A model generated the notes under the pieces. That model was not told the DNA's origin, made no database searches, and worked only from the letters and a program-made list of their open reading frames with translations. A DNA stretch of 54,618 bases, taken from positions 1 to 54,618 of IMG/VR virus record IMGVR_UViG_3300025759_000009; one strand, written 5' to 3'. The position numbers were made by a program, and so were the translations under genes. The DNA is from a virus. Positions 2,743 to 37,806 of this stretch are shown one piece after another (the first letter of the stretch is position 1; every line of letters begins with the position of its first letter).

Positions 2743-2933
2743 TGGAATTTTTTGTAAAAAATTTTTTGACGGCCCATGGGTCCCATACGGACTAAAAAGG
2801 TTTTTACTGGTGATTGTAGGTGGGGAACACTGTGTGGGGCTGCTGTCCGATTGTCCGAATATAAGGGGGGGTGCACAGGCCCCATATACCCCGATTTCCG
2901 AACAATTGTTCGGGTTGCCTAGGGTACCTTAGA
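2743..2933. other. Intergenic control region with a perfect CCGAACAATTGTTCGG palindrome
   Basis: No gene is seen here. The stretch holds an AT-rich block (about 2745-2768), an inverted ATGGGACCCAT-like segment near 2775-2790, and the perfect 16-bp palindrome at 2898-2913, the best copy of a motif repeated across this genome. It separates the upstream terminator from the promoter of the cupin-led cluster. Confidence 0.6.
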
Positions 2934-2963
2934 AAAGCAAAAAGCCCGCGCTTGGCGGGCTTC
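2934..2963 (-). terminator. Intrinsic terminator after the 80-aa gene
   Basis: The minus strand reads AGCCCGC-CAAGC-GCGGGCT followed by TTTTTGC. The 7-bp GC-rich stem with a T run lies just after the stop at 2984 and would end leftward transcription of the amidoligase cluster. Confidence 0.85.
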
Positions 2964-2983
2964 TCTGTCGGTGTGAGATATAT

Positions 2984-3226
2984 TTAAAAGTCTCGATACC
3001 TATGCCTAACTCTGTCGCTGTCATTGTCAGAGTATTGGCGCGGCGTATCGTGCCCCTTGTCACCAAAAACCACGCAATCAGTTTTTGGATCAATTGGAAA
3101 ACCTGTATCACCATACATTCTATGATCGTGAATACTATGGACGAAATCCGGCTGTCCAAATACGCGAACAGCGTTGGTGAATTGTTGCTTTGTTCTGAAG
3201 CCCACAAAGTGAATATATCTTTTCAT
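2984..3226 (-). CDS. Small conserved-looking phage protein (80 aa)
   Basis: It begins MKRYIHFVGFRTKQQF and contains VFGQPDFVH and a Tyr/Asp/His-rich C-terminus. I recall similar short proteins in other phages but know no function. The start has an AGGAAACAGG ribosome site and the recurring leader TCTAGCAAAAAGG. It lies 56 bp downstream of the amidoligase and ends just before a terminator, so the two may share a transcript. An overlapping frame (2929-3207) is not supported by a ribosome site. Confidence 0.75.
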   Translation of the reverse strand: MKRYIHFVGFRTKQQFTNAVRVFGQPDFVHSIHDHRMYGDTGFPIDPKTDCVVFGDKGHDTPRQYSDNDSDRVRHRYRDF

Positions 3227-3274: not shown

Positions 3275-3282
3275 TGTTGTTT

Positions 3283-4356
3283 TTATCGCGTCAATGTTTC
3301 AACGCGGTTGTGCCACCATTCGAACAATTCATCTGACAAGCCCGCCCATATTGACGGGTTGCCTATGCGGTGCTCTGGCAACAGTGTCGCGCCGTCTGTT
3401 GTGGTCTCAAAAGAAAACAAAACGGTGTATGATGTGTGATGCGTGCCGTCACCATAGCGCGCGCCGTTCGCTTGTTGTGTGTTGGTGACCACGGCGGCGT
3501 CACCAACGCGCGCTCTGATTTCAGAGACGGCGGCGCGAACACGTTGCTCTGAGCATCCGGTTGCATCCATGATTTCTTGCGTGGTTGCGCCACCATCTGA
3601 GCGCATCATGGAATATTGAACGCCAACGCGCGCGCCGCGTCTGAATGGCTGTTCGGGTGTATCGGTAACAATTGTTCGGGTGCCACCCTCAACGCGTGCC
3701 GTGTTGGTGTGTTCGACTAGGTTCAACAGGAATTTCACCCAATTGATAATCTTGTCGGCTTCAACGGTGCCGGACGCTTGGCGGAATTCAATTGTGCCGC
3801 GTGACCATGTTTCCAAATTAACGGCGGTGAATTTGCCGAACGTCAATTCGCGGATTGTTGTGGCGCGCTCAATGCGTGCAAGCGATAGCGGCGCGCAATA
3901 GCGGTTGTCGGTGCGTGAGCGCGGGAACATTGTGTTAATTGTCGATTGTTGCCGCGTATAGCGGTACATAATATCTTGAACCGCGACAAAATCCATAGGG
4001 TCAGCATATGCGCCTGTGATATAGCGGCCAGTTCTATGGCGCTCTAAAATGCTATCGCCACAAAAGCGAACGGCGTGCGTGTCGTCATTCAACGGCGCGT
4101 TGCCAATGTGAACGTGTAAACCGCACTTTGAATTGACGCGCGCGCCAACGCGGTCCAACACGCGGCAAATTTTCTTGATATAATCGAATGCGAAATCGCA
4201 CGCGGCCAATGGTGGCAACACGATTTCGGCGTCAACGCTTGGCGTGCCGTCCGGTTTAACGTCACAGCCGCGGATTTCGGCGTTGCTTAATGCGCTTTTG
4301 ATTGCGCTGATGCTAGCGCCGCTTGTTTCGATTTCTATTCCAAAGGTGTAAGTCAT
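3283..4356 (-). CDS. Amidoligase-family COOH-NH2 ligase with C-terminal winged-helix-like segment
   Basis: The 357 residues show the amidoligase pattern: GIEIET at 6-11, a KPDGTPS...EIVLPPL strand block at 34-50, CGLHVHIG at 78-85 and TIEFRQASGT at 188-197. This family, related in fold to glutamine synthetase and gamma-glutamyl-cysteine ligase, uses ATP to join a carboxylate to an amine, often on peptides or proteins. Residues about 255-285 (TTQEIMDATGCSEQRVRAAVSEIR) look like a helix-turn-helix, an unusual addition. The coding sequence is full of GCGCG words and differs in base usage from its neighbours, hinting at acquisition. A cyclotransferase of the family that can reverse gamma-glutamyl linkages is encoded on the other strand at 7.1 kb. 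Substrate unknown. Confidence 0.8.
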   Translation of the reverse strand: MTYTFGIEIETSGASISAIKSALSNAEIRGCDVKPDGTPSVDAEIVLPPLAACDFAFDYIKKICRVLDRVGARVNSKCGLHVHIGNAPLNDDTHAVRFCGDSILERHRTGRYITGAYADPMDFVAVQDIMYRYTRQQSTINTMFPRSRTDNRYCAPLSLARIERATTIRELTFGKFTAVNLETWSRGTIEFRQASGTVEADKIINWVKFLLNLVEHTNTARVEGGTRTIVTDTPEQPFRRGARVGVQYSMMRSDGGATTQEIMDATGCSEQRVRAAVSEIRARVGDAAVVTNTQQANGARYGDGTHHTSYTVLFSFETTTDGATLLPEHRIGNPSIWAGLSDELFEWWHNRVETLTR

Positions 4357-4872: not shown

Positions 4873-5063
4873 GCCGCTTCCTCCTGCTCTAATACTTCCA
4901 TAGCGTGCTCAAGTGCCTCTTGCTCGCTGTCGATTCCGTAACAAGTGAAGCAATGGTAATCGACCCACTGCCCTCCGATTGGCGTTTGCAAGTTAAAGTT
5001 GCTGGTTCCGTTCCACTCGATACGCAAGTGCTGCTCGTTGTGCTCTACTTCCCAATACTTCAT
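4869..5063 (-). CDS. Small uncharacterised protein (64 aa)
   Basis: It begins MKYWEVEHNEQHLRIEWNG and ends in an acidic helix (SEQEALEHAMEVLEQEE). The start follows AGAGGAAAG and the conserved TTCTAGTAGAG leader of a TTGACA promoter, which strongly supports it. It starts with MKY like the next gene and may be a diverged relative; otherwise unrecognised. Confidence 0.7.
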   Translation of the reverse strand: MKYWEVEHNEQHLRIEWNGTSNFNLQTPIGGQWVDYHCFTCYGIDSEQEALEHAMEVLEQEEAA

Positions 5064-5076
5064 TTTCTTTCCTCTC

Positions 5077-5120
5077 TACTAGAATAATCCCACACTATCC
5101 CACACTGTATAGTATGTCAA
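5077..5120 (-). promoter_or_regulatory. Shared-leader promoter (copy 3)
   Basis: The minus strand reads TTGACA (5115-5120), 17 bases, TAGTGT (5092-5097), GGGA, then TTCTAGTA (5077-5084) and the AGGAAAG ribosome site. The same order of elements is seen upstream of 6435, 8627 and 19799. Confidence 0.75.
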
Positions 5121-5166
5121 CAGGAAAAATCGCACCGGGTTGAATTTTCTTCCGGGCGCGATTCGT

Positions 5167-5183
5167 GAACAATTGTTCGGGTT
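5167..5183. promoter_or_regulatory. Copy of the GAACAATTGTTCGGG palindromic motif
   Basis: GAACAATTGTTCGGGTT abuts the first unit of the 46-bp tandem repeat, in the gap upstream of the 64-aa gene promoter. Confidence 0.7.
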
Positions 5184-5271
5184 ACGCTGCCGGGCAAAAC
5201 CACTGGCGCACAAAACACTGCTGTAGGTTACGCTGCCGGGTAACACCACTGGATACAATAACACTGCTGTA
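5180..5271. repeat. 46-bp direct tandem repeat, two copies
   Basis: GGTTACGCTGCCGGG opens both units (5180-5225 and 5226-5271) and ACACTGCTGTA closes them; 38 of 46 positions agree. A third GGTTA begins at 5272. The first unit starts with the GGTT that ends a palindromic motif. The stretch is non-coding and may be part of an origin or operator. Confidence 0.9.
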
Positions 5272-5500
5272 GGTTATCCGACGTAGTAACCCGAACAATT
5301 ACTCGGGTTGACCCCGACGCTGGCGAATCCCGAACCCCGAACCCCGAATATTGGTGATTTATCTGAGAGGCGCTGAGAGGCCCGTAGAATAACCCGAACA
5401 ATTTTCAGCACCCCGAACCCGAAAAAACCCGAATCGGCGCTGAGGGGGGCGTTTCTGTGGCTCTACGACCCCGCCAGCCGCCCCGCATGGAGCGCAGGCG
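5272..5500. other. Non-coding repeat-rich region upstream of the promoter at 5.1 kb
   Basis: No gene is supported. It holds AACCCGAACAATTACTCGGGTT-like (5288-5309), CCCGAAC runs at 5329-5350, AACCCGAACAATTT at 5391-5404 and CCCGAAC/CCCGAAAAAA at 5411-5433. It also has a repeated GAGAGGC near 5364-5380. With the arrays at 4608 and 5180 this is the densest motif cluster of the genome and the best candidate for a replication origin or master control region. Confidence 0.6.
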
Positions 5501-19865: not shown

Positions 19866-20236
19866 GCACTTTTTTTAGAAAGAAATATTTCTATGCCCAG
19901 ACAGGCCTTCATGAGCTTCTTTTTTAGTTTAAATTCAGGAGTTTCAACGCCCTTGGCATCTTCAACAATTTCGTGCCACTCGCCGTCCTTGTCTTCGCGC
20001 TTGTAGCGGAAGTCAGCAATATAGGCGCATATCTTTTGTTCGTTAACGATCAGGTTGTAGCGCACTTGTAGCTCTAAGTCTTTAACACGCCCAGCGCGTT
20101 CGAGCGACTTGATGTACAGATAGCGTTCGCCTTCCCACTTAGAATCGAACTTGATGCCATCTATCGTGACCTTCTTATTTCCATACTTGGGTCTTGACCC
20201 ACGCCGCTTGGGATTATATACAGTTGAAAAGGTCAT
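19862..20236 (-). CDS. DUF1064 phage endonuclease-like protein
   Basis: KYGNKKVTIDGIKFDSKWEGERY, ADFRYKRED and VEDAKGVETPEFKLKKKL are the hallmarks of DUF1064, a PD-(D/E)XK-fold family linked to resolvase-type nucleases (Glu in KWEGERY, Asp in ADF, Glu-x-Lys in VEDAKG). At 124 residues it has the usual length. It may cut branched DNA before packaging. The start lacks a clear ribosome site, so it may be nearly leaderless. Confidence 0.8.
   Translation of the reverse strand: MTFSTVYNPKRRGSRPKYGNKKVTIDGIKFDSKWEGERYLYIKSLERAGRVKDLELQVRYNLIVNEQKICAYIADFRYKREDKDGEWHEIVEDAKGVETPEFKLKKKLMKACLGIEIFLSKKSA
20194..20222 (+). promoter_or_regulatory. Promoter of the ribbon-helix-helix gene
   Basis: TTGACC (20194-20199) and TATACA (20217-20222) with a 17-base spacer point rightward, inside the divergent DUF1064 gene. 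Regulation of both genes by the ribbon-helix-helix product would be natural. Confidence 0.75.
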
Positions 20237-31030: not shown

Positions 31031-31486
31031 TTAGTCGATTAGTTCAAAGTGTGGGCCGTCGATAAATGGGGATTTTCCTTGGCTGCGGCGCAAGTCAACG
31101 TAGGCATTGTACGCTTCTTCCATTGTTCCATCCCACTCTCGAATGTCGTTGATATGCCAAGAAGCGCCCCATCGCACAGCCACGCCCACGTCAATAGCTC
31201 CCTGCTTCACAGCATCCGCAATGTCAAAATACAACTTTATTTCCCACGATGCCCGAGAACCGACATAAGCCATGAGGTCGAGAGCGTTGCCGTCAATGTG
31301 CTTAGACTTCATAGTTTTTGACGCACCTTTGTTATAAAGCTCACGCTGCTCTTCAATGGTTCTTAGTCCACAAATTACACCAAAGTCGGTATTTGTGTGG
31401 CCTATAGCTGCTTTTGCAACGGCTACTAGCCGCTCGTCTACGCCTTCCATTCGGTCAAGACTGCGTTGTGATAGTTTGTATGTCAT
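31031..31486 (-). CDS. Endolysin: M15-family (VanY/L-Ala-D-Glu type) peptidase
   Basis: The ATG at 31486 follows GAGG. SKHIDGNALDL gives His63 and Asp70, and GPHFEL gives His146, the zinc triad of M15 peptidases. GLRTIEEQRELY helix precedes them. At 151 residues it has no cell-wall-binding domain. It cuts peptidoglycan stem peptides after the holin opens the membrane; the two genes overlap their neighbours in a lysis cassette. Confidence 0.85.
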   Translation of the reverse strand: MTYKLSQRSLDRMEGVDERLVAVAKAAIGHTNTDFGVICGLRTIEEQRELYNKGASKTMKSKHIDGNALDLMAYVGSRASWEIKLYFDIADAVKQGAIDVGVAVRWGASWHINDIREWDGTMEEAYNAYVDLRRSQGKSPFIDGPHFELID

Positions 31487-31487
31487 T

Positions 31488-31877
31488 TCATTTCCTCTTA
31501 AACAAAGCCTGCGCACCCCGAACGCCAAAGCTGGCGCTTATCGCGATACCTAAGCTGTAAAAATACCAGTCCGGCGCTTTGGAAAGTTGCTCAAACCCAC
31601 GATCTACCCACCCTTCTGCACCGGGAATGAAGGCTAAAATCAACGGGATTGACAGCACAATTACAAACCATTCGTCTTTCCAGCTTGATTTTGCGCCCTC
31701 GGCCATGATGCGCTCCCAGTCGGCAACGCTAGTCTTCTCAGAAAGAAGTATCTGTGCCTTGGCTTTAGCCTCGGTCAACTTTAACTCGGCAGCGGCAGCG
31801 TTTTTATCAGCTTTACCTTGCAGCCAAGAGCCCGCGAGGTTGGCTATCGGTCCTAGTGCGGCAGTGAATATACTCAT
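31488..31877 (-). CDS. Holin-like membrane protein (3TM type)
   Basis: A hydrophobic N-terminus (LGPIANLAGSWL), a charged helical part (residues 20-60), a transmembrane stretch WFVIVLSIPLILAFIPG at 68-84 and another near the C-terminus (WYFYSLGIAISASFGV). The shape fits phage 3TM holins. The next gene is the endolysin. Confidence 0.75.
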   Translation of the reverse strand: MSIFTAALGPIANLAGSWLQGKADKNAAAAELKLTEAKAKAQILLSEKTSVADWERIMAEGAKSSWKDEWFVIVLSIPLILAFIPGAEGWVDRGFEQLSKAPDWYFYSLGIAISASFGVRGAQALFKRK

Positions 31878-32188
31878 TTTCTACCCATCCATGCTGTTGC
31901 GCCCATAAATGCACCGACGATTCCTGCGCCGCTAATATAAAAAAGGTTGCTTATGTCGCTAAGTGCCGTGACACGGTCCAAAGGTATAAAGAACATTGTA
32001 ACCGTAAAGACGCCCATGCCTATCAGTGTCCAACGGGCCATGCGCAGTTGAGCTAGGTGTTTGCGCAGCGCATCTTCAGTCTCTCTAATCTCTTTGGCCT
32101 TCATCATCTCCGCGTCAGAAACAATTCCATCGCCATCCATATCGTAAGCATCGTACTTACTTTGGTCTTCTAACTTTTTTGCCGCCAT
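31874..32188 (-). CDS. EF-hand membrane protein of the lysis cassette
   Basis: DAYDMDGDGIVSDAEMM at residues 13-29 is a canonical EF-hand loop (DxDxDGxVxxxE). A charged helix is followed by two membrane segments (WTLIGMGVFTVTMFFI and a Gly-rich AGIVGAFMGATAW). It sits directly upstream of the holin, so calcium control of lysis is possible but not shown. Confidence 0.75.
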   Translation of the reverse strand: MAAKKLEDQSKYDAYDMDGDGIVSDAEMMKAKEIRETEDALRKHLAQLRMARWTLIGMGVFTVTMFFIPLDRVTALSDISNLFYISGAGIVGAFMGATAWMGRK

Positions 32189-32283: not shown

Positions 32284-32448
32284 TTATTCTGGTATAACCT
32301 CAAAGCAATACACCACCGTGGTACTGTTTGTTATCAACACTTTAGCCCTCTCAAGCTCTTCTTGGCACTCCAACTCTGTTGGAAATTGCTCAAGCTGGTA
32401 ATGCTCTAACTTATTGTTTGTAAACATGAACCACACTAAGAACCACAT
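32284..32448 (-). CDS. Small membrane or secreted protein (54 aa)
   Basis: The ATG at 32448 overlaps the preceding stop (TAATG). MWFLVWFMF is a hydrophobic N-terminus, then a charged part with Cys at ELECQEEL and VVYCFEV. It might be a spanin-like or periplasmic peptide; unproven. Confidence 0.55.
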   Translation of the reverse strand: MWFLVWFMFTNNKLEHYQLEQFPTELECQEELERAKVLITNSTTVVYCFEVIPE

Positions 32449-32921
32449 TACCACTTCCCCTGTTGTTTTCCGAGAAAGTACCCAACGACAACAAGACCCG
32501 CTATTCCAGATAAACCAACTAGAATACCTACAGTCCACTCTATTAGGGCGCGTTTGAGTTCTGCCTTGCGGTAAACCTCTTCTTTACGCTGCTTTCGCAT
32601 CTGCGCCTCAATGTGCAGCACTTCCTCCCAAGCGGACGGTCCGTACTGAAAACTGATGAAGTTTTTGATTTCCTTGCGCATTTCGGACATCTTTTTCTTC
32701 TGCGCAAATATCTCAATGGCGCTGTGCGTGTCCGACCCCCTGAATGAATACCACGGAGGGTTCTTAACCTGCTCTTCGGCAAAGGAAAAATCGCTGTAAG
32801 CCTTGCCCCACTTACCAAGCTGCCCTGTAATATCTTGCAATTCACGGCCTACGGCAACGCCCTGCTTGATGGCGTTATAAGCAGATGTGGCGAGGCCAAC
32901 GGCTGTGATAGGATCAATCAT
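32448..32921 (-). CDS. Single-pass membrane protein in the lysis region (157 aa)
   Basis: The C-terminal segment TVGILVGLSGIAGLVVVGYFLG at about 130-151 is transmembrane. The bulk is helical and charged (KKKMSEMRKEIKNFISFQYG). I recall similar proteins near lysis genes of marine phages; it may be an inner-membrane spanin component, although orientation is reversed. Confidence 0.6.
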   Translation of the reverse strand: MIDPITAVGLATSAYNAIKQGVAVGRELQDITGQLGKWGKAYSDFSFAEEQVKNPPWYSFRGSDTHSAIEIFAQKKKMSEMRKEIKNFISFQYGPSAWEEVLHIEAQMRKQRKEEVYRKAELKRALIEWTVGILVGLSGIAGLVVVGYFLGKQQGKW

Positions 32922-33101: not shown

Positions 33102-33335
33102 TCACCGCTCCATCAAGCGGTCTATTTTCTCTTCAAGGCGGTCAAACTTATTCATAATTTGCGAGAGAACTTCAGAACTGTCAGACTTAGTGACGTATTC
33201 TTTAGCCATCTCTTCGCGGGTTCTGTTGAGCAGAATGGTGACGCGCTTTATCTCATCGTGCTGGGATTTAATCCACCACCCTAAACCGCTGATTACTGCG
33301 GCAAATACTAGGTTCAAAAGCGCGTCCATTTCCAT
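33102..33335 (-). CDS. N-anchored coiled-coil protein (77 aa)
   Basis: LLNLVFAAVISGLGWWI at 6-22 is a membrane anchor; the rest is a long coiled coil (VLSQIMNKFDRLEEKIDRLME). The shape is common in phage lysis regions. It starts inside the previous stop. Confidence 0.6.
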   Translation of the reverse strand: MEMDALLNLVFAAVISGLGWWIKSQHDEIKRVTILLNRTREEMAKEYVTKSDSSEVLSQIMNKFDRLEEKIDRLMER

Positions 33336-33840: not shown

Positions 33841-36800
33841 TTAACAGGCCATCAGCACACATGGCACACAGTATGAACCATCGTCATATGTGCAGGTAAC
33901 GTGCGTTGATGTAACTTTAGCGATAGTCTTGCTGCGAACAATGTCATCACCTTGAGGTTTGGCTGTGCCATCACCCGCTGACATTAGCAGATCACCACGA
34001 GAAACTGTTGTGCCTTGAGCAATTCGGATGATTAAATCACCAGTCATAGCTACGTTCATGTCTGTGGTGTAATCTTCACGCTCATCCCAATTTACAAATA
34101 CACCCGCAACATTTGTATCACCTTCGACAGATGACACAGCCATGCAGTTAAGCTGTTCGTTATCTTCATCACCCCACACAGCCATTTGATCCAAGTTGGT
34201 CATAACTGTACCTTTAAGAAGGCCATCAATACGAGTGTTGTCTGCGGTCTGCGACCAGCGAGATAAGTGTCCACCGTTATAAGATACGGTTGTGCCTGAA
34301 ACGCTAATGGAACCTTCTTCGGTACCAGCACTACGCAGAGACAGGATAACACCATCTGCAAATCTATTAAACCCGTGATCGGCTCTACCCGAAGCCCAAA
34401 ACCTTGCGGTAGTTTCTACGCCATCAGAAGCAAAACCAACGCCTGAAACATTAGAGCCATTACCCGGAGTGGATGACGGCGTAGAGATGCTAGCTTCACC
34501 AAAATAAAAGTCCCCTCCAGAGGAGACACGCATTCTAGGAACCCCAGACCCATCCGACAGCACGATGTTGTTGCTTGAGGTGCGGAGGTCCAAGCCGCTT
34601 TGGTTGCCGTTGTAGCGTCCAAGGAAGGTGTTCCTTTCTCCAGTTTCAACAAGATATCCAGAGACTTCACCAATAAATGTGTTTTGCGCTCCTGTTGAAT
34701 ATTGACCAGCGTAAGCCCCCACAAAAGTGTTATAGGCACCTGTGCTGTTTGTAAATCCAGCAATATAACCCAAACTAGTGTTGCGGGTACCTGTGGTGTT
34801 GTTAGCTATTGCCTGATAGCCCACCCCTGTGTTCTTGTCTGCGGTGGTGTTGGATTGAAGTGCCTGACGACCCAACGCCGTGTTATAAGTGCCTGTCGTA
34901 TTTGCATACAACGAAACAGATCCGACCGATGTATTTTCGCTGCCTGTAGTAGTGCTACGGAGAGCGTCTCGACCAATAGCAACCATTTCTGCGCCACCGT
35001 TTGCGCTTTTAGCAGCACTACTCCCAATAGCTATATTGTTGTTTTGACTGGTATTTGACTGTAGTGCATAGCTTCCTATAGCAATATTTTGCACACCAGT
35101 GGTAGTGCCTTCTGCGGAAGCATACCCAATAGCCACATTGTCACCACCAGTGGAGCAAGTTTGCAAAGCAAATGCAGCAGCAGCGAAATTTCGGTATCCT
35201 GTTGTGATGTTTTGACCTGCTCTATGCCCAATACCTGTGTTGTAAGTACCCGTGCTAACATCATACAATGCTTGATAGCCAACGGCGGTGGTGCCAGTTG
35301 CAGTGGTATTACTGTATGCCGCCTGATACCCCACAGCCGTGTTGTTGCTGGCGGTGGTGTTGTTAGCTAAAGAATATGTACCCACAGACGTATTACTAGA
35401 ACCAGTGGTGTTTTGTAAGAAACTTTCTGCACCTACAGTTACGTTCTCTTGACCACTAGTATTATCCTCAAGCGCCCTATACCCGACTGCCGTGTTGTAG
35501 GATGCGGTGGTGTTGGCTTGGAGCGCAGACATACCAAGAGCCGTGTTGTAGGAGCCTGTTGTGTTCGAAACTAAGGAACTTTGCCCACTTGCCATATTAT
35601 TGATGCCAGAAGTATTGTTGTATAAAGCTGACATACCTAGTGCTACATTATTATAACCAGTAGTGTTGCTCCTTAGAGATCCATGACCAAATGCCGATAA
35701 GTTTACCCCTGTAGTATTAGTATAAGCAGCCTGATAACCAACCGCTGTGTTGTTGCCAGCGGTGGTGTTGGAACGAAGTGCATCCTTCCCCATTGCTGTA
35801 TTATAAGCACCCGTAGAGTTGCTTTGCAGAGAATCGTACCCGTAGGCTGAGTTGTTGCTGGCGGTGGTGTTGGAACCTAAAGCAGTCTGACCAAAACCAG
35901 AGTTGTTTTCTCCTGTCGTGTTATTAGACAATGTACCATAACCAACGGCTGTGTTTCTTGACCCCGATGTGTTGTCCCTCAGGGCTTCGTAACCAACGGA
36001 TGTCACAGCCTGACCTGACGTATTTGCAAAAAGAGCCTTATGCCCTACCGCAGTGTTTAAAGTGGTGGCGTTGTTATATAAGGCCTGATAACCGATTGCA
36101 GTTATTGAACTTTGGTTATTACTATAAGCAGCCTGATACCCAACAGCTGTGTTGTTACTGGCGGTGGTGTTGGTTTCAAGTGAGCTTTGCCCTAAAGCGG
36201 TGTTATAATTACCCGTTGTCGTGCTTTGCAAAGCATTTGTGCCAACACCTGTATTGGCGCTTCCTGTGGTGTTACTTAAAAGAGCCGTCCTGCCAACTGC
36301 AACAATCCCAGAACCAGTAGTATTAGCATTCCCCGCTTGATACCCAACAGCGGTGCTGTTGCTGGCGGTGGTGTTGTTTTCTAATGCTTCTGCCCCAAAA
36401 GCCGTGTTGTTGGCACCTGTGGTATTGTCGTATAACGCACTATATCCAACTGCGGTATTATAGCTTGCATTTGAGTTAGTATAAAGTGCCCGCCAACCCA
36501 ACGCAGAATTATAATACCCAGTTTCGTTAGAGAATAATGCAGTATGACCAACCGCTGTGTTGTAGTACGCTGTAGTGTTTGAGCCTAACGCCCCTCCACC
36601 AACGGCTACGTTGCTCCCACCTGTAGTATTTGCATCTAAAGCTGTGCTGCCAACGGCAGTGTTATTCAAGCCTGTTTCATTGGAAAGCATGGCATTGTAA
36701 CCAATAGCCGTGTTTTCATACCCTGAAGTGTTTGCGGTTAGAGCAGATGTGCCTACCGCTGTGTTAAAATTACCGCCAGTGATTATTGCATCTAATGCAT

Positions 36801-37806
36801 TATTACCCAACGCCACGTTATTGGAACCCGTAGGATAATTCCCGTCCAGCTTGATCGTGCCGCCATCGACTGACAGGTTGCCAGCTACAGTTAAACCGTC
36901 CGTGACGGCTGTGCCTGTGATGTCTACGCCAGAAGTCGTTGTAATTATTTTTTCAGCGTTATCGTAGTATAAAGAAACACCCGCATCGACCTCCGCTAAA
37001 ATCATTCTTTCAGTGTTACCTGTGTTTCGTAATTCAAAGTTACCTGCGAGGATACGCAGGTTACCCTGACCCACGTCACCCACATAACTATGAGTCCCAT
37101 CATGGTAAAGCTGTAGGTCAGACCCTGCGCCGAAGATGGCTTTGTCGTCGTCACCGAACAGGATGTCATTACCACCTGTCGTGTTGCCGTTAGCAAGAAC
37201 CTCGGACAGTTCGTTGTTTGCACCAACCTGCGCGTCAACGTAAGCCTTGATGGACTCAGATGTCGCAATGTTCGTCGCAGTCGCCGTACCCATTGTATCG
37301 TCGTCAATAATCGCGGTCACAGACACTCCGCCCAAGCGCAGGCTGTCAAAGTACGCATTGTTAAAGACGTTCGCAGCTACAGCACCAGAACCAGCGCCGT
37401 CAAAGTAAACAACCGCAGTCGTCCCCGCGGGAACCTCATAATCGTTGCTCGCGTTGTACGTCCCTTGAAACAGGATAATGCTGCGCGATCCTGCCAGATT
37501 GTTGCGCACATAAATGATCTTTTCAGAGTCGTTCGGCGTCAACTGCACAAAAGCCGTCGCGCCCAAGTCGCCGCCGTCGGCAAATGTAACCATGCGGTTT
37601 CGGCCATCGGACGCCTCACCGTCTGTAATCGCTAGAGGGTTCGGAGAACCAGATGTCCCCGCACTCGGCAATGTGACAGTAACCTGACCGTCAAGAGCCG
37701 TATCCAAAAGACTTAGGTTTGTGTTCGTTGTATCGCCCCATGTACCGGACTGTTCGCCTGTGCCGATAAGCTCGATACCGTTGTTTAATGTATATGTACT
37801 AGGCAT
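33841..37806 (-). CDS. Giant tail fibre/adhesin with YadA-like 17-residue repeats (1321 aa)
   Basis: Residues about 325-1070 carry roughly 43 copies of a 17-residue unit, NNTAVGYQALYNNTTGS in its commonest form, the left-handed beta-roll repeat of trimeric autotransporter heads. The N-terminal 320 residues (YTLNNGIELIGTGEQSGTWGD) attach to the virion, and the last 250 residues, after DLRTSSNNIVLSDG, include a globular tip with a four-Cys end (CTYDDGSYCVPC). It would recognise the host surface. The DNA repeat has a 51-bp period, prone to slippage and recombination, so the count may vary. Confidence 0.9.
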   Translation of the reverse strand: MPSTYTLNNGIELIGTGEQSGTWGDTTNTNLSLLDTALDGQVTVTLPSAGTSGSPNPLAITDGEASDGRNRMVTFADGGDLGATAFVQLTPNDSEKIIYVRNNLAGSRSIILFQGTYNASNDYEVPAGTTAVVYFDGAGSGAVAANVFNNAYFDSLRLGGVSVTAIIDDDTMGTATATNIATSESIKAYVDAQVGANNELSEVLANGNTTGGNDILFGDDDKAIFGAGSDLQLYHDGTHSYVGDVGQGNLRILAGNFELRNTGNTERMILAEVDAGVSLYYDNAEKIITTTSGVDITGTAVTDGLTVAGNLSVDGGTIKLDGNYPTGSNNVALGNNALDAIITGGNFNTAVGTSALTANTSGYENTAIGYNAMLSNETGLNNTAVGSTALDANTTGGSNVAVGGGALGSNTTAYYNTAVGHTALFSNETGYYNSALGWRALYTNSNASYNTAVGYSALYDNTTGANNTAFGAEALENNTTASNSTAVGYQAGNANTTGSGIVAVGRTALLSNTTGSANTGVGTNALQSTTTGNYNTALGQSSLETNTTASNNTAVGYQAAYSNNQSSITAIGYQALYNNATTLNTAVGHKALFANTSGQAVTSVGYEALRDNTSGSRNTAVGYGTLSNNTTGENNSGFGQTALGSNTTASNNSAYGYDSLQSNSTGAYNTAMGKDALRSNTTAGNNTAVGYQAAYTNTTGVNLSAFGHGSLRSNTTGYNNVALGMSALYNNTSGINNMASGQSSLVSNTTGSYNTALGMSALQANTTASYNTAVGYRALEDNTSGQENVTVGAESFLQNTTGSSNTSVGTYSLANNTTASNNTAVGYQAAYSNTTATGTTAVGYQALYDVSTGTYNTGIGHRAGQNITTGYRNFAAAAFALQTCSTGGDNVAIGYASAEGTTTGVQNIAIGSYALQSNTSQNNNIAIGSSAAKSANGGAEMVAIGRDALRSTTTGSENTSVGSVSLYANTTGTYNTALGRQALQSNTTADKNTGVGYQAIANNTTGTRNTSLGYIAGFTNSTGAYNTFVGAYAGQYSTGAQNTFIGEVSGYLVETGERNTFLGRYNGNQSGLDLRTSSNNIVLSDGSGVPRMRVSSGGDFYFGEASISTPSSTPGNGSNVSGVGFASDGVETTARFWASGRADHGFNRFADGVILSLRSAGTEEGSISVSGTTVSYNGGHLSRWSQTADNTRIDGLLKGTVMTNLDQMAVWGDEDNEQLNCMAVSSVEGDTNVAGVFVNWDEREDYTTDMNVAMTGDLIIRIAQGTTVSRGDLLMSAGDGTAKPQGDDIVRSKTIAKVTSTHVTCTYDDGSYCVPCVLMAC
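34600..36830 (-). repeat. 51-bp-period coding repeat of the fibre
   Basis: About 43 imperfect units of GCGGTGGTGTTG-type sequence and TATACCCAACAGCGGTG recur every 51 bases. They encode the YadA-like roll. Units such as those beginning AACAATACAGC resemble each other closely enough for recombination. Confidence 0.85.

Follow-up and report, generated by a model that had tools for sequence, protein, structure and literature searches.

A widespread phage membrane protein with a conserved EF-hand loop is often encoded beside lysis genes

Introduction

In known holins, timing depends on how far the protein has accumulated and on membrane potential. Class II holins, of which the phage 21 pinholin is an example, are proteins with two transmembrane (TM) segments and N-in/C-in topology. 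The phage protein described here resembles them in that it is small, has two TM segments, is N-in/C-in as judged by charge and is encoded directly upstream of an endolysin in many loci; it differs from them in carrying an N-terminal EF-hand and in often coexisting with another holin. With the EF-hand superfamily it shares a 12-residue loop with all canonical ligands and a helix on either side, while departing from typical members in that its hand is single, unpaired and fused directly to a membrane hairpin. The family constitutes a widespread variant of lysis-cassette membrane protein, and among the open-access literature matches listed we found no earlier report of it, nor of any EF-hand protein beside a phage holin or within a lysis cassette; the portion of one article that was retrieved mentions an EF-hand orphan protein of an Acinetobacter phage without a link to lysis (PMC5795418).

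We analyzed a stretch of 54,618 nt from a marine virus of bacteria (record IMGVR_UViG_3300025759_000009, positions 1 to 54,618; hereafter the window), for which an original prediction had described an EF-hand membrane protein next to the holin. Four Roseobacter phages out of 50,697 records (CRP-902, CRP-901, CRP-7 and CRP-1) were compared with the window, and at most 3% of the 25,000 bases between positions 20001 and 45000 match any of them.

Results

A single EF-hand loop in a 104-residue phage protein

The EF-hand gene, delimited by its open reading frame (ORF) and its homologues, lies on the minus strand at 31874–32188 and encodes a two-TM membrane protein of 104 aa. Its loop (residues 16–27, DMDGDGIVSDAE; minus strand, 32108–32143) is the sole strict EF-hand match when all six frames of the window are translated (109,232 residues). 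From residue composition, 0.03 matches are expected among the 24,238 residues in ORFs that run from stop to stop over 100 aa or more. The protein matches phrog_27150 (E 4.4e-6), as do 33 of 53 diverse family members sharing 26–82% identity with it (best E 2.4e-39); this PHROG is annotated as unknown function only.

Profile searches place the family close to known EF-hands. At E 0.01, Pfam EF-hand_5 matches 27 of the 53 members and EF-hand_1 matches 23 (best E across the 53 members 1.4e-5), with the window protein itself missing the curated EF-hand cut-off (12.4 vs 25.9 bits) and the best bit score among the relatives' matches listed, 21.3, also falling below it. The family profile matches calmodulins with a whole-sequence E of 1e-8, a value summed over four hands, with a best single stretch at E 0.28. 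NCBIfam gives weak matches only, most commonly to XopAW, an EF-hand effector model (8/53 members, best E 0.0028). Each protein has one loop in the alignments examined, and no paired EF-hands were found in them.

The family is large, with at least 590 confirmed relatives from one query. A scan of a genome collection, with one relative as the sole query, gave 188 pattern matches and no confirmed cellular copy. One phage contig (L067) carries the gene for the EF-hand membrane protein twice, in differing versions, at 3282–3599 and 4980–5306, and is unique in this among 403 loci.

Loop ligands are retained throughout the family

We next asked how well the loop is conserved. A count based on a regular expression that demands D at position 1 and E at position 12 is circular. 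The 60 representatives used below were likewise chosen with a similar D1/E12 filter and a length limit, which 396 of 404 homologues pass, and the rows of two alignments (A2, holding 57 of the 60 after exclusion of three with long tails, and A3) are filtered for the loop as well. Because our first count was circular in this way, we recounted without the filter and, separately, with the membrane part alone as query.

The unfiltered alignment of 404 homologous ORFs contains 259 distinct rows. Across these, all ligands are kept: D1 in 255/255, D or N at position 3 in 258/258 (D 221, N 37), D or N at position 5 in 258/258 (D 256, N 2) and E12 in 258/258. Two positions that are not ligands, G6 and I/V8, are equally constant (258/258 each), and the only gaps within loop columns come from four rows that end at contig ends. 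The profile that gathered these homologues spans the loop region, and some search peptides overlap the loop too. In the loop-independent check, the membrane part alone found 80 loci with 69 distinct proteins, some on contigs that repeat earlier ones; the loop is present in all 67 complete N-termini, the remaining two proteins being truncated. No dead-loop variant occurs among the 259 distinct rows or these 67 N-termini. The canonical EF-hand loop is thus confirmed, and the loss of loop residues among relatives that, according to the original prediction, would refute it is not seen.

Within the whole protein, D16, G21 and E27 are the sole invariant columns among the 53 diverse members; these were picked with the loop filter, so that the independent measure of conservation is the 259-row count. 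At the nucleotide level, pairs drawn from 64 close relatives show 4,785 synonymous and 348 non-synonymous differences at loop codons 1, 3, 5, 6 and 12. In the same pairs, the loop as a whole has a non-synonymous/synonymous ratio of 0.52, compared with 0.47 in the exit helix and 0.26 in the hairpin, and is thus less constrained than either. Together, these values indicate that, among close relatives, it is the ligands and not the loop at large that are constrained.

Isolated phages encode the protein as well. Of 21 isolate-phage records matched in a protein search, 15 have E-values no higher than 2e-3, and the loop is kept in all seven that were translated (CRP-1, CRP-9, CRP-207, Melnitz-3, DC31, phiN3 and phiM12). 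It is equally intact in the freshwater Limnohabitans phage DC31 and in the Sinorhizobium phages.

The EF-hand is predicted to run into a membrane hairpin

In an AlphaFold2 monomer model (mean pLDDT 76.4, pTM 0.47), the protein folds as a helix at residues 11–15, a loop with a bridge at 22–23, and two long helices at 25–66 and 70–103. The model is metal-free and reproduces the helix-loop-helix fold of an EF-hand, with residues 1–30 modelled less confidently (block means 53, 63 and 68; pLDDT 63–68 in the blocks that hold the loop). The exit helix of the predicted EF-hand and TM1 form one continuous helix (residues 25–66; minus strand, 31991–32116), and the second membrane segment (residues 79–97; minus strand, 31898–31954) falls within the last helix.

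By hydropathy, the window protein has segments at 55–73 and 79–97 at a threshold of 1.2, and the first only at 1.4; at the latter threshold, 50 of the 60 representatives have two segments and 10, the window protein included, have one. The two membrane segments of the original prediction are therefore also predicted by hydropathy at 1.2 and by the two long model helices. In the 50 two-segment representatives, the mean number of lysines and arginines is 3.0 before TM1, 0.9 in the loop between the segments and 2.2 after TM2. By the positive-inside rule, these flanking charges suggest N-in/C-in topology, and hence, most likely, a cytoplasmic EF-hand. Neither PDB nor viral structures gave a Foldseek match at E 0.001 or lower, the nearest viral fold match being A0A142EZX3, above that threshold (E 0.0075, rmsd 10.4).

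The EF-hand gene overlaps a putative holin gene in the window

Directly downstream of the EF-hand gene is a putative holin of 129 aa (phrog_2524; minus strand, 31488–31877), whose ATG overlaps the TGA of the EF-hand gene in an ATGA at 31874–31877 (minus strand). PHROG 2524 is annotated as 'unknown function', and the putative holin has no good Pfam match; its family and GTA_holin_3TM have an N-terminal motif in common (hhalign 92%, 27 columns), and in the relative L001 its place is taken by a PF11351 GTA_holin_3TM protein (E 5.4e-24). The next gene encodes an M15-like peptidase endolysin lacking a membrane segment (phrog_465; 151 aa from the ATG at 31486; minus strand, 31031–31486; E 9.1e-49 for the ORF as listed).

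Upstream, also on the minus strand, are a phrog_32327 protein with one C-terminal TM (32448–32921), which is a frequent partner by neighborhood, and a 77-aa protein with an N-terminal TM (phrog_462, 'lipoprotein'; 33102–33335), a further partner in some relatives. The C-terminal TM of the phrog_32327 protein resembles a tail anchor; this protein is frequent both in EF-hand cassettes and in the EF-less cassettes described below, and it may itself be a lysis component. The window also encodes, at 33841–37806, a putative tail fibre of 1321 aa with many degenerate NTAVG-type repeats.

Linkage to lysis genes persists across many relatives

To quantify this association, we removed 98 redundant entries from the 404 homologues, leaving 306 distinct ones. 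An endolysin is found within 3 kb on the same strand in 182 of these, a holin only in 38 and neither in 86. With at least 2.5 kb of flank on both sides, the corresponding counts are 87, 12 and 33 (neither recognized) out of 132. Gene labels came from profiles built for this analysis, with some seeds verified against PHROGs or Pfam and others carrying database annotation (chitinase in CRP-902, lysozyme in HMO-2011); labels for a second M15 group and for GH108 are presumed, having been assigned by eye. The neighboring endolysins fall into five profiles, suggesting that the link between the EF-hand gene and lysis survives endolysin exchange.

Frequently, the phrog_32327 protein is encoded first, followed by the EF-hand protein and then by a holin, a spanin or an endolysin. 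GTA_holin_3TM (PF11351) or phrog_2524 holin candidates lie directly downstream, with stop/start overlap, in some of the loci. The ATGA overlap with a phrog_2524-type gene occurs in at least 10 cases, and 30 of 33 GTA-holin-type next genes overlap the EF-hand gene stop to start (redundant contigs included); overlap with a holin or endolysin is common across loci. The EF-hand protein itself shows no clear homology to GTA_holin_3TM or phrog_2524 (hhalign 0.2% and 21%), and no holin family matches it above cut-off: Phage_holin_3_6 is a sub-threshold match in 9 of the 53 members at E 0.01, scoring 15.3–17.3 bits among the matches listed against a cut-off of 28.4. Of the coupling by overlap to the holin that the original prediction had described, the overlap itself and a strong link to lysis genes hold, while the neighbor is a putative holin only and the link is not universal.

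Two isolates illustrate how far gene content can identify a holin. CRP-1 encodes the EF-hand protein directly upstream of the annotated endolysin, and among the products of its 67 CDS no other has more than one membrane segment at a threshold of 1.5. The product of the gene after the endolysin has a lipobox and, at its C-terminus, a hydrophobic segment; at 1.2, among the CDS re-examined, it shows a second one, and its counterpart in CRP-9 matches an Rz-like spanin family (E 1.2e-4). As CRP-1 has no other two-segment protein, the EF-hand protein is by elimination the best holin candidate there, with the single-TM phrog_32327 protein also a possible one. In DC31, the EF-hand gene is followed by an Rz-like spanin and then the endolysin, and elsewhere in the genome are genes for three more small proteins, each with two or three segments. 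The elimination argument therefore fails for DC31 and holds for CRP-1 only.

An EF-less protein occupies the same slot in other phages

The holins of CRP-902 and CRP-901 are 97.7% and 90.6% identical to the putative holin of the window. Directly upstream of them is a gene for a two-TM protein of 66 or 64 residues without an EF-hand (2804–3004 in CRP-902, locus L089; 2807–3001 in CRP-901, locus L090). This protein has at least 576 confirmed relatives in the viral collection, annotated as hypothetical or 'TMhelix'. Within the locus stretches examined, the EF-less and EF-hand genes never occur together (0/403 EF-hand loci, 0/83 EF-less matches). Homology to the hairpin of the EF-hand protein, an idea formed by eye, was rejected on an hhalign probability of 0.7%, and we therefore treat the EF-less protein as a positional substitute only.

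Some loci lack a lysis neighbor

Several loci place the gene elsewhere. In the T4-like phages Melnitz-3, phiN3 and phiM12, and in some contigs, it is flanked by gp51 on one side and a tape-measure-like gene on the other; at locus L233, the neighbor matches tape-measure PHROGs. This class accounts for 22 of 403 loci, redundant contigs included. In CRP-207 (61 of 76 CDS examined), the EF-hand gene lies among genes for other membrane or secreted proteins, and its endolysin candidate, a GH19-profile protein with a multi-span neighbor, is found about 25 kb away. In L417 it directly precedes a large gene that by eye appears terminase-like.

Two further observations concern annotation at such loci. 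A CRP-207 gene annotated 'putative lysozyme' (locus L490, 46124–46705) has the look of a TM and coiled-coil protein without a Pfam match at E 0.01, and is likely misannotated. In L416, the gene upstream of the EF-hand gene (3304–3918) appears by eye to be adenine methyltransferase-like, and none of the five neighbors shown carries a lysis label.

Many relatives of the EF-hand protein also encode a recognized holin, so that the EF-hand protein need not be the holin there. A role as universal sole holin is ruled out by these loci together with CRP-207. The T4-like loci, CRP-207, L417 and the sub-threshold holin similarity make a lysis function likely at most, and perhaps not one that all members have.

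Discussion

Our data point to a likely function in lysis for this EF-hand protein. At roughly even confidence, we propose that it is a calcium-binding inner-membrane lysis protein, either a two-span class II-like holin or a holin partner, with a single cytoplasmic EF-hand. Loop conservation, gene linkage and the stop/start overlap are observed and fold and topology predicted, whereas calcium binding in vivo, the lysis role and the direction of any effect are inferred; a single EF-hand may bind calcium only weakly. Control of lysis by calcium is a plausible hypothesis. As the exit helix of the EF-hand continues as TM1 in the predicted model, metal binding could be transmitted to the hairpin by mechanical coupling. 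While phages assemble, free calcium in the cytosol would be low and the loop empty or partly filled. Once the membrane began leaking, calcium would enter and fill the loop, which might alter how the hairpin packs or how it contacts the co-translated holin, giving abrupt lysis. Extended to the whole family, the protein would be a widespread built-in calcium sensor in marine, freshwater and soil phages, in which leak calcium fills an EF-hand rigidly joined to TM1, the holin hairpin opens and lysis becomes calcium-gated and feed-forward; this extension we regard as doubtful. The original prediction had also raised lysis timing by sea-water ions. With a predicted cytoplasmic site and an intact loop in freshwater DC31 and the Sinorhizobium phages, direct sensing of sea-water ions is not supported, and calcium entry upon leakage is the simpler reading.

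A purely structural EF-hand, always filled with calcium or magnesium and serving to fold a cap at the N-terminus of a lysis membrane protein without any sensing, is unlikely in our estimation. Absolute conservation of the ligands suits a sensor and a structural site equally, and the hand is single with no dead-loop variant found. Glutamate at EF-hand position 12, however, favors calcium over magnesium, and it is present in all 258 rows; moreover, the EF-less two-TM protein, to which no homology was detected, fills the same slot, suggesting that such a cap is dispensable for it. That the motif is merely a chance match in a short ORF has a negligible probability: the window protein alone does fall below the Pfam cut-off, but ligand retention in 259 distinct rows, set beside the 0.03 expected matches, rules this out, in agreement with the membrane-part-only query and the calmodulin match of the family profile.

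Two other explanations would place the protein outside lysis. It could be a late envelope protein guarding the infected cell, for instance through superinfection exclusion, whose lysis neighbors merely reflect a shared locus of late membrane genes. Small two-span exclusion proteins exist, T4 Imm among them, and the setting of the gene in CRP-207, with membrane and secreted protein genes and far from the endolysin candidate, fits such a role. We nevertheless think it quite unlikely, given an endolysin or holin within 3 kb in 99 of 132 well-flanked distinct homologues and the frequent stop/start overlaps with these genes. Still more improbable is a protein carried in the virion or associated with the tail and moving into the host membrane upon infection. 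The position between gp51 and the tape-measure-like gene in T4-like relatives would fit such a role, but this placement is confined to the 22 of 403 loci noted above; the literature matches listed include no virion proteomics for or against it.

We favor the calcium-binding lysis protein over these alternatives. It offers a likely role for a family listed only as unknown function, and, if true, would make ion binding an input to lysis timing, a new kind of clock. Since the family is large, the trigger of lysis in marine bacteria becomes a testable question.
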